A stretch of 64,000 nucleotides of DNA, taken from assembly GCA_026129905.1 (NCBI GenBank), contig JAHCHE010000019.1, positions 1 through 64,000 on the forward strand. The letters are read 5' to 3'. A program made the translations under genes and the position numbers. The number at the start of each line of letters is the position of its first letter. Positions within the stretch are counted from its first letter, which is position 1. The notes below the pieces were generated by a model, which made no database searches, was not told where the DNA came from, and saw only the letters and a list, made by a program, of their open reading frames with translations. Positions 45,014 to 47,664 of the stretch are shown here, piece by piece. The stretch comes from Bryobacteraceae bacterium (GTDB lineage: Bacteria > Acidobacteriota > Terriglobia > Bryobacterales > Bryobacteraceae).

Positions 45014-45754
45014 TCAAGCCCCGGCGGCCTGTTTTCCTTCAATCGCGTCGGCCAGCGCGCGCAGCAGGGCGGCGCCGTCGCCTCGCCAGGCGCTCCCGTG
45101 CATGCAGGCGAGCGTCGTGGGTTGCTGCTCGGCCAGGCGCTCCAGCAGCGCGCGCGTGTCCACGGCGTGGGCGTAGTAGTCCATCTGCCGGCGAAAAGCT
45201 TCGCTCGGACCGAGAATGTCGGCTTGGGTGAGCGGGGGATGATCCGCCCCGCCCTGCGTGAACAGATCGCCGGACAGCAGCGTCTGCGTTTGTTCGTCGA
45301 ACAGATAGCCGCAGTCCCATCCGTGGGGCGCGTGGGGGGCGTCCAACCACCGCAGGCGGCGCGAACCCAACAGCAGCGTATCGCCGTGCGCCAAGGCATG
45401 CGCGGGGCGGTCGGCGACATCGTTGATCGACACCATGGCGCCCACGGCCGAGCACACCGGGACGGCCGAGGGCGCGACGGTCAGCCAGTCATTGAGCGCC
45501 CCGCACTCGTCCGCCTCGAAATGCGAAAGGCCGATGTACCCCAGGCGTTCCACCGGCATCACCGCGGCGACAGCCTCCCGCACCAACGGAAACATGCGCT
45601 TAAGCCCCGCGTGGAACAGCAGCGGCGTTTCGTCCACCACCAGGTATTGATTGAACGTGAACCCGCCCGGCAAGACGGTTACCGGAGTGCTGATGCGATA
45701 GATGCCGGCGGCGATTTCATCTACGGTCGTCCCGGACTGAGAATTTGTAATCAC
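45014..45754 (-). CDS. flavodiiron-type metallo-beta-lactamase (ODP) protein without flavodoxin domain
   Basis: 246 residues from a GTG preceded by GGGGAGGG; longer upstream frames run antisense through the divergent gene. The diiron-site motif H78-F-E80-A-D82 is present (SHFEADECG), with LLSGDLFTQGG and ACMHGSAWRGDG supplying further Asp and His ligands. In flavodiiron NO/O2 reductases the first motif is H-x-E-x-D-H; here Glu replaces the second His. There is no C-terminal flavodoxin domain, so it may be an O2/NO sensor (ODP type) rather than a reductase. Divergent from the hemerythrin-PAS operon. Confidence 0.8.
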   Translation of the reverse strand: MITNSQSGTTVDEIAAGIYRISTPVTVLPGGFTFNQYLVVDETPLLFHAGLKRMFPLVREAVAAVMPVERLGYIGLSHFEADECGALNDWLTVAPSAVPVCSAVGAMVSINDVADRPAHALAHGDTLLLGSRRLRWLDAPHAPHGWDCGYLFDEQTQTLLSGDLFTQGGADHPPLTQADILGPSEAFRRQMDYYAHAVDTRALLERLAEQQPTTLACMHGSAWRGDGAALLRALADAIEGKQAAGA

Positions 45755-45851
45755 GGTTCCCTCCCCAAACGCGATCTTACCGCTTGCCTTGGGGCCGCGC
45801 AGCCGTAGCAGCGGAGATGCGACAGGTTCGCGCCCTTCGCGCGCCGCGGCG

Positions 45852-45863
45852 TGACCAAAGTCA
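45852..45863. promoter_or_regulatory. TGAC-CAAA-GTCA palindrome in the divergent O2/NO-module promoter region
   Basis: Perfect inverted repeat with a 4-nt spacer, in the half-site geometry of CRP/FNR-superfamily regulators (compare TTGAT-N4-ATCAA of FNR/DNR). It lies 38 bp before the hemerythrin-PAS start and about 100 bp before the metallo-beta-lactamase start. No regulator gene is nearby. Confidence 0.5.
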
Positions 45864-45901
45864 TAGATCGCCGGAGCGCCACTTCGTATTCTGGTCGTGG
45901 A

Positions 45902-47143
45902 ATGAGCGAAGTGATCAATAACCGCGAGCACCGGATTCTGGCGCTTAAGAGCGTCATCGAGCGCCTGCACGCGGGCGAGCCGCCGGAACAGGTGAAGGGC
46001 GTTCTGAAGGACATCGTCCGGCAGACGGATTATTCGGAAATCGTCGCCATGGAAGAGCAGCTCATGGCGGAAGGAATGCCGGTGGAGGAGGTCAAGTCGA
46101 TGTGCGACCTCCACTCGCAAGTGACGCGGGACATCCTGGTGCAGCTTCCCGCGAGGGCGCTGCCGCCAGGGCATCCGGTGGATACGTTCCGCCGGGAGAA
46201 CGAGGCATTGCGTGGGGTCGCGTTCAAAATGCGCGGGGTGATGGCGGAGATCGGCGCCCTGCCGGACGACGCCGCGCCGGAAGCATTGGTCCAGCAGTGG
46301 CGACAGAGCTTCAACGAGCTGATGGATATCGATAAGCACTACCAGCGCAAGGAGCACGCCCTGTTCCCGTTCCTGGAGCGGCACGGGATCACCGGCCCCT
46401 CCAAGGTGATGTGGGCGAAGGACGACGACGTGCGCGCTCTGCTCAAAGATCTCGGCGAAGCGCTCGGGCAACGCGGCGCCACGGCGGCGGAATGGAAACT
46501 GGTGGCCGCCAGCGTCGCCGACGCCGCGCTCTCGGCGATCGAGGAAATGATCTACAAGGAGGAAAACATCCTCCTGCCGATGTGCCTGAACACCTTCACC
46601 GATGACGAATGGGCGGAAATCTGGGCTTCGTCGCCGCGCTACGGCTGGTGCCTGGTGGAGCCGCGCGAAGGTTACCGCCCACCGCAACCCGCCGTGCGCG
46701 AGGGGCTGAGGCTGCCGCCGTCGGACACGATCATGCTCCCGACGGGAAACCTTTCGCTCGACCAGCTTGTCCGCATTTTCTCCACCATGCCGCTCGATCT
46801 GACGTTCGTGGACGCCGACGACCGGGTGTGTTTCTTCTCGGAGGGACCGCATCGCGTGTTCGCGCGGAGCAAGGCGATCATCGGCCGCAAGGTCCAGCAC
46901 TGCCATCCCCCGCGGAGCGTCGACGTGGTCGACCGGATCCTGACCGATTTCCGGGAAGGACGGCAGAGCGTGGCCGAATTCTGGATTAACTTTCACGGAC
47001 GCTTCGCGCACATTCGCTACTTCGCCGTTCGCGACGGGGAGGGCAAGTACATGGGCACGCTCGAGGTGACGCAGGACGTTACGGGAATCCGGGCGCTGGA
47101 AGGCGAGCGCCGCCTGCTCCAATACGACGGAGTTGCGCAATGA
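45902..47143 (+). CDS. DUF438 hemerythrin-PAS protein
   Basis: 413 residues from the ATG giving MSEVINNREHRILALKSVI. Order: DUF438 helical N-terminal domain (about 1-80, HAGEPPEQVKGVLKDIV), hemerythrin-like domain (about 90-250: HPVDTFRRENEALRG, HYQRKEHALFPFLERHG, MIYKEENILLPM), then a PAS domain (about 280-400: STMPLDLTFVDADDRVCFFSEGP, IIGRKVQHCHPPRSVDVVDRIL). The PAS segment is of the heme/NO-linked type found in this architecture. One canonical hemerythrin His (in the first motif) is Asp here. Probably senses or handles O2/NO. It overlaps the next gene by four bases. Confidence 0.88.
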   Translation: MSEVINNREHRILALKSVIERLHAGEPPEQVKGVLKDIVRQTDYSEIVAMEEQLMAEGMPVEEVKSMCDLHSQVTRDILVQLPARALPPGHPVDTFRRENEALRGVAFKMRGVMAEIGALPDDAAPEALVQQWRQSFNELMDIDKHYQRKEHALFPFLERHGITGPSKVMWAKDDDVRALLKDLGEALGQRGATAAEWKLVAASVADAALSAIEEMIYKEENILLPMCLNTFTDDEWAEIWASSPRYGWCLVEPREGYRPPQPAVREGLRLPPSDTIMLPTGNLSLDQLVRIFSTMPLDLTFVDADDRVCFFSEGPHRVFARSKAIIGRKVQHCHPPRSVDVVDRILTDFREGRQSVAEFWINFHGRFAHIRYFAVRDGEGKYMGTLEVTQDVTGIRALEGERRLLQYDGVAQ

Positions 47144-47664
47144 CGCTGCCCATCACTCCCGAAACCAAAGTCGGCGCGCTGCTGGAGGCGTACCCTGCCC
47201 TGGAGAAAGTCCTTGTCGGCATCGCCCCGGCATTCGCGAAGCTGCGGAATCCGATTCTGAGACGAACGGTTGCCAAAGTGGCGACGCTCGACCAGGCCGC
47301 GAAGATTGGAGGCGTCGGCGCCCGGGAACTCGTGCGAACGCTGCGCGAGGCCGCCGGACAAGCGGACGCCGATCTGCCGGAATCCGCTGCCGCTTCGCCG
47401 GACGCCGGAGCGGCGAGCGGGCCGGAGTGGCTGGCGGGAGCGACGGTGCGACTCGAGATCGATGCGGACGCAATGCTGGAGACGGGCGAGCATCCGCTCG
47501 GCAAGGTGCGGCAATGCGCCGCCGCCCTGGGGCCGCGCGAGGTGGTCCGCCTGACGAGTTCGTTTCGGCCGGCCCCGCTGGTGGACGCCGTCTCGCGCGG
47601 CGGATTGCGGGCTCATTGCCGGCAGACGGATGGCGGCTACGTCACGTACGTCTGGCGAGCGTGA
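47140..47664 (+). CDS. DUF1858-DUF2249 protein, coupled partner of the hemerythrin-PAS protein
   Basis: 174 residues. The N-terminal DUF1858 domain (about 1-70: ITPETKVGALLEAYPALEKVLVGIAPAFAKLRNPILRRTVAKVATLDQAA) resembles the N-terminal part of ScdA/Ric-type iron-sulfur repair proteins; a short linker leads to DUF2249 (about 105-172: VRLEIDADAMLETGEHPLGKVRQCAAALGPREVVRLTSSFRPAPLVDAV), a TusA/SirA-like fold. ATGA overlap with the preceding stop shows translational coupling. A role in NO-damaged iron centre repair is inference from domains. Confidence 0.85.
   Translation: MTLPITPETKVGALLEAYPALEKVLVGIAPAFAKLRNPILRRTVAKVATLDQAAKIGGVGARELVRTLREAAGQADADLPESAAASPDAGAASGPEWLAGATVRLEIDADAMLETGEHPLGKVRQCAAALGPREVVRLTSSFRPAPLVDAVSRGGLRAHCRQTDGGYVTYVWRA

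Follow-up and report, generated by a model that had tools for sequence, protein, structure and literature searches.

A conserved DUF438/DUF1858-DUF2249 gene pair in a predicted NO-responsive CRP/FNR regulon of a Bryobacteraceae bacterium, beside a probably independent ODP gene

Introduction

HcpR/DNR regulons are controlled by CRP/FNR regulators that recognise the palindrome TTGACnnnnGTCAA or TGTGA-N6-TCACA (wTGTGAnnnnnnTCACAw), and residue 180 of the regulator tracks position 3 of the motif, R180 being tied to G (TGTGA) and Ser or Pro to T (TTGAC) (Rodionov 2005, PMC1274295). In the available text of that paper, the targets named include norB, nrfHA and hemerythrin-like genes and do not include DUF438 or DUF1858-DUF2249 genes.

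Proteins with DUF1858 and DUF2249 domains have been described in other settings. DrpB of Thermus thermophilus, composed of DUF1858 and two DUF2249 domains, affects the expression of nitrate respiration genes (PMC6282519), the DUF1858-type protein bsl7085 of Bradyrhizobium is induced in denitrification in an NnrR-dependent manner (PMC6710368), and a DUF1858 or DUF2249 protein is denitrification-induced in Haloferax mediterranei (PMC11218638). DrpB, too, is expressed when Thermus respires nitrate or denitrifies. DrpB shares both domain types with the second protein of the pair described here, but its partner is DrpA and not a DUF438 protein, whereas bsl7085 is a separate small protein, unlike the member of our pair. 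In the titles and abstracts of the two papers found to name DUF438, no link to NO was seen. As for the ODP family, the O2 sensor for chemotaxis of Treponema denticola (PMC7666581) is a distant member and the only one of known function.

Here, a 64,000-nucleotide stretch of a Bryobacteraceae genome (the window) was analysed, in which an ODP gene is divergent from a DUF438/DUF1858-DUF2249 pair. An initial annotation had read the three genes as one O2/NO-responsive module under a possible CRP/FNR-type palindrome.

Results

Organisation of the locus

ORF analysis, Pfam and a motif scan confirmed the three genes and the palindrome (Table 1). The ODP and DUF438 genes diverge across 147 nt. The palindrome in between is centred 44.5 nt before the first codon of DUF438 and 103.5 nt before that of ODP. 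The ODP gene has a GTG start and a ribosome-site-like sequence, GGGAGGGAA, and the end of the DUF438 gene overlaps the start of the DUF1858-DUF2249 gene by 4 nt. Start codons are predictions, genes at other loci were called by a simple ORF script, and some of the comparison genomes are incomplete.

The ODP product reached 49.7 bits against PF19583 (gathering cut-off 27.2) and showed the ODP domain only, with no flavodoxin domain, in agreement with its description as a stand-alone protein divergent from the pair. DUF438, hemerythrin and PAS (PAS_10) domains were all above cut-off in the first protein of the pair, as was DUF1858 in the second. The DUF2249 match of the window copy was sub-threshold (E=0.02, 15.2 bits vs a cut-off of 29.5), and this call stands because all 23 aligned orthologues of the second gene match the model, the best with 4e-11.

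Table 1. Features of the locus and positions of the same site elsewhere in the genome.
Feature	Location	Strand	Evidence or context
ODP-family diiron protein, stand-alone, 246 aa	45014-45754	-	PF19583, alignment, structure comparison
DUF438-hemerythrin-PAS protein, 413 aa, operon gene 1	45902-47143	+	Pfam, alignment, 3cax/2qkp, AlphaFold model
DUF1858-DUF2249 protein, 174 aa, operon gene 2	47140-47664	+	Pfam, 2fi0, pair conservation
Predicted CRP/FNR (HcpR/DNR)-type operator, CGTGACCAAAGTCATA	45850..45865	.	core TGAC-N4-GTCA at 45852-45863
Site in/near intergenic stretch	window operon		precedes DUF438/DUF1858-DUF2249 pair
Site in/near intergenic stretch	C34		precedes qNOR
Site in/near intergenic stretch	C4:153312		precedes RIC (TIGR03652, 245 bits)
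Site in/near intergenic stretch	C1:289448		precedes RIC-like hemerythrin; divergent radical-SAM gene
Site in/near intergenic stretch	C6		precedes nrfHA
Site in/near intergenic stretch	C56		precedes divergent NapH-like/ferredoxin pair
Site in/near intergenic stretch	C4:114161		precedes TetR-HlyD-ABC set
Site in/near intergenic stretch	C4:137613		precedes methyltransferase
Site in/near intergenic stretch	C1:423805		precedes NAD(P)-binding oxidoreductase

Conservation of the pair and its upstream site

Strong DUF438 matches were found in 10 of 41 relatives' genomes. The DUF1858 gene followed DUF438 directly in five of them (G002, G007, G011, G012 and G016) and was fused to it in one frame in G005, and across the phylum it adjoined DUF438 in 28 of 29 loci examined. 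The initial annotation had taken a conserved neighbourhood as the touchstone for its trio; such a neighbourhood was found for the coupled pair, which is thereby supported, and none for the ODP gene. DUF438 also occurs on Lactobacillales plasmids, which was counted against an NO-regulon explanation: on a Lactococcus plasmid the two genes are adjacent in reversed order, and a Lactobacillus plasmid carries DUF438 beside nrdDG, after a gene with the annotation iron-sulfur cluster assembly.

The core TGACCAAAGTCA was the sole such palindrome within the window, against a chance expectation of 0.48, and this count alone has no significance. The bare core TGACYnnRGTCA was not enriched genome-wide (22 sites vs 23 in the control); therefore, the sites were judged by their position, context and conservation and no longer by their number. 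The extended pattern GTGAC-N4-GTCAY gave 46 strand matches in the 8.57 Mb assembly vs 10 for the reversed pattern, mostly within ORFs and with GC-rich centres. A chance match, with the operon controlled otherwise, would fit both the lack of enrichment of the core and the roughly 0.5 sites expected per 64 kb, but it is hardly credible when the orthologous upstream regions are compared. In 6 of 10 same-family genomes (the window genome, G002, G005, G010, G011 and G018) the exact core lies 5' of DUF438 and begins 50-59 nt ahead of its start codon, and G007 and G012 carry it with one mismatch. Further, in G016 the DUF438-DUF1858 genes form the tail of a qNOR-headed operon with the site 5' of qNOR. 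Other acidobacterial families show mostly TTGAC-N4-GTCAA, with six exact and two near cores in 29 loci, and the site is absent in some pair-bearing relatives (G017 and the large group L137-L147). Because it is kept in relatives, the palindrome is far beyond chance, although with a core probability of about 0.0013 per upstream region the binomial figure is a guide only, as the loci are orthologous. These comparisons, together with the match to the HcpR consensus, support TGAC-N4-GTCA as a conserved, putative CRP/FNR-type regulatory site.

Recurrence of the site at NO genes

In this genome, matches of the extended pattern in or near intergenic stretches lie before qNOR, RIC and nrfHA, among other genes (Table 1), a recurrence that also speaks against a chance palindrome. 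Among relatives and this genome, the exact site was upstream of 8 of 15 qNOR genes, and the stand-alone hemerythrin genes of G001 and G015 carry it as well. Moreover, qNOR accompanied DUF438 in 8 of its 10 genomes, a co-occurrence with P 0.001 across the 41 genomes and P 0.005 when restricted to the family. The NO link thus rests on stronger grounds than the initial annotation had at hand.

Some further features of these genes were recorded. This genome has two qNOR genes (L190:2991-5336 on C34, and L283 at C5:170888-173062), with the palindrome upstream of the C34 copy only. The region C4:107000-160000 (L187-L189) holds three palindromes, RIC, several hemerythrin genes, radical-SAM genes and one molybdopterin-oxidoreductase-like gene, and looks like a nitrogen-oxide respiration island. 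The qNOR gene that heads the G016 operon (L118:2861-5245, C410) is interrupted by one TAA stop, possibly an assembly error.

A candidate regulator

Domain searches of the assembly gave seven cNMP-binding domains and a single strong Crp-type HTH; the remaining six cNMP proteins had no comparable HTH match. The sole complete CRP/FNR regulator found in it is a 226 aa protein with cNMP_binding and HTH_Crp_2 domains (G000:C42:3586-4263), which has only two Cys and hence lacks the cysteine cluster that holds the Fe-S centre of FNR. Its best NCBIfam models, FtrB and CRP, were both below cut-off, and its putative assignment to the HcpR/DNR type was made by motif and conservation.

In the alignment made here, the recognition helix of the C42 protein, VREVVSR, places R180 and E181 (CRP numbering), in agreement with the relation between residue 180 and motif position 3 given in the available text of PMC1274295; the site itself matches the palindrome, and the target types are shared with those named there; no hcp gene was noticed among the targets in this genome. 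All same-family orthologues of this protein are R-E, and the sites in those genomes start with GTGAC. In G128, G145, G406, G418, G367 and G384, TTGAC/TTGAT sites coincide with P-E in the best-matching CRP/FNR protein, and in G134 and G184 R-E occurs with mixed GTGAC...GTCAA sites; as these other families have several CRP/FNR paralogues, the pairing of regulator and site is there a best match only. The regulator accompanied DUF438 in 9 of 10 genomes (P 0.002 across the 41, only 0.065 inside the family) and was also present in genomes without DUF438, and in G018 the regulator gene itself bears the site. By sequence, the C42 protein is the best candidate for the regulator of the site.

The ODP gene as a neighbour of the pair

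The ODP protein retains the diiron ligand positions H78, E80, D82, H144, D163 and H219, with Glu83 at the position of the second His of flavodiiron proteins, FDPs (H78-x-E80-x-D82-E83). Its identity as an FDP was rejected on this replacement and on the missing flavodoxin domain. All six ligands and Glu83 were among the positions invariant in 23 of 23 aligned ODPs from several phyla, and Glu83 is therefore a family trait. The Glu noted initially at this position was indeed there, but the suggestion that the protein may for that reason sense rather than reduce did not hold, the residue being common to the aligned family. Structures of the Thermotoga maritima FDP have been solved for the one-histidine variants H90N, H90A and H90D, H90 being what we take to be the equivalent of Glu83. 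From these comparisons, a first-sphere Glu change alone cannot separate an ODP sensor from an enzyme. A PNAS paper has reportedly treated ODP as a sensor. The window protein adopts the flavodiiron fold but has no flavodoxin part (TM about 0.7 and 18-19% identity to 6qrq/6qwo), and the Treponema denticola ODP (6qrq, 6qwo) is likewise a stand-alone PF19583 fold without flavodoxin; unlike in the chemotaxis role of the latter, no chemoreceptor gene was recognised beside the window ODP.

A single three-protein module, with ODP as sensor and with the palindrome controlling transcription in both directions, would explain the divergent layout over 147 nt with the site in between, and some other sites of this genome do serve divergent gene pairs (C56, C6, C34); O2 or NO reactivity is also possible for ODP/FDP folds. 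The comparative evidence nevertheless makes such a module very unlikely. Of 483 candidate ODP relatives in many phyla, the closest 80 (62-72% identical) were kept, and none had a DUF438 or DUF1858 gene in flanks of up to 4 kb. Among 396 acidobacterial genomes, ODP was present in 49, DUF438 in 78 and both in 9, vs 9.7 expected, and the two genes were adjacent in this genome only. The window ODP also falls outside a supported clade (99/95) formed by ODPs of the bacterial family to which this genome belongs and was therefore probably acquired separately. On grounds of neighbourhood, co-occurrence and phylogeny, the reading of the trio as a unit was thus rejected. Control of ODP by the same site was rejected as well, the core palindrome being absent from all 90 other ODP upstream regions, and at the window locus the site lies far from the ODP start (103.5 nt, as above). 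In sum, the claim of a three-protein module was not sustained, and the ODP gene is probably an accidental, independently acquired neighbour of the pair.

Other ODP loci had features of their own. An inverted repeat, GTGTAACG-N11/12-CGTTACAC, was located 48-75 nt upstream of ODP genes of several phyla (L013:1182-1208, and also L002, L003, L014, L015, L018, L027, L033, L040, L085 and L089), and L016 and L066 carry the variant GTGTCACG. This repeat, which is absent before the window ODP, is probably the real operator of many ODP genes. In G011 and G024, ODP adjoins a sigma-70-type factor gene and a possible anti-sigma gene (zf-HC2-like, below cut-off). ODP/sigma-factor loci were L127:6799-8722, L128:6102-8636 and L018:2767-4729, and a related anti-sigma-like cluster was found in 10 of the closest 80 ODP loci.

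Features of the pair proteins

The hemerythrin and PAS parts of the DUF438 protein matched 3cax (PF0695, Pyrococcus furiosus; E 1e-90), and its PAS part matched 2qkp (SMU_1151c), both deposited as uncharacterised. In the DUF438 alignment, H91, H146, E151 and E220 were invariant, and the PAS domain likewise kept a CHPP motif throughout. A four-helix iron site is likely. A hemerythrin-type domain is shared with RIC/YtfE/ScdA, which falls within the same predicted regulon in this genome; unlike those proteins, the DUF438 protein has DUF438 and PAS and lacks ScdA_N. Its identity as RIC/YtfE was rejected (15.9 bits vs a cut-off of 254, and no ScdA_N). The DUF1858 partner is small and helical in the manner of ScdA_N.

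The main rival to a function in NO handling or Fe-S repair is sensing, in which the two proteins would act as a regulatory pair like DrpA/DrpB of Thermus. The invariant CHPP motif, a PAS fold similar to heme- and flavin-binding sensors and the effect of DrpB on nitrate respiration genes (PMC6282519) fit such a role, but Pfam detected no kinase, cyclase or DNA-binding output domain in either protein, the hemerythrin part weakly resembles the repair protein YtfE, and the pair shares its predicted regulon with RIC. A sensor pair is thus possible but doubtful, and NO handling or Fe-S repair is our best guess.

Discussion

The locus is probably best explained by an operator of an NO-responsive CRP/FNR regulon that would drive a DUF438/DUF1858-DUF2249 operon for NO handling or repair, with ODP independent of it. 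Gene anatomy, the conservation of the pair and of its site, the presence of the same site before NO genes and the matching recognition residues were observed directly.

In the mechanism proposed, the palindrome would be an operator of an HcpR/DNR-type regulon, to which the C42 regulator would bind, NO inducing the two-gene operon together with qNOR, RIC-type Fe-S repair proteins and NrfHA encoded elsewhere in the genome. The hemerythrin-type four-helix bundle would bind iron and NO, the PAS domain may gate the iron site, and the DUF1858-DUF2249 protein would be the partner of the DUF438 protein. The operon would then handle NO or mend NO-damaged iron centres. Regulator binding, NO induction, iron occupancy and the repair or NO chemistry are what we infer from the comparisons above. 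As a more tentative extension, the pair could be a second NO-induced system for iron-centre repair or NO handling, apart from RIC, in which redox sensing by PAS gates the iron, present across Acidobacteriota and with variants in archaea and Lactobacillales.

An uncharacterised DUF438/DUF1858/DUF2249 pair, whose relatives have solved structures and are functionally blank, is hereby placed in a predicted acidobacterial NO regulon, and that regulon gains a named candidate regulator and operator. As qNOR-bearing Acidobacteria are candidate N2O producers, their putative NO switch merits attention, together with the proteins accessory to it.
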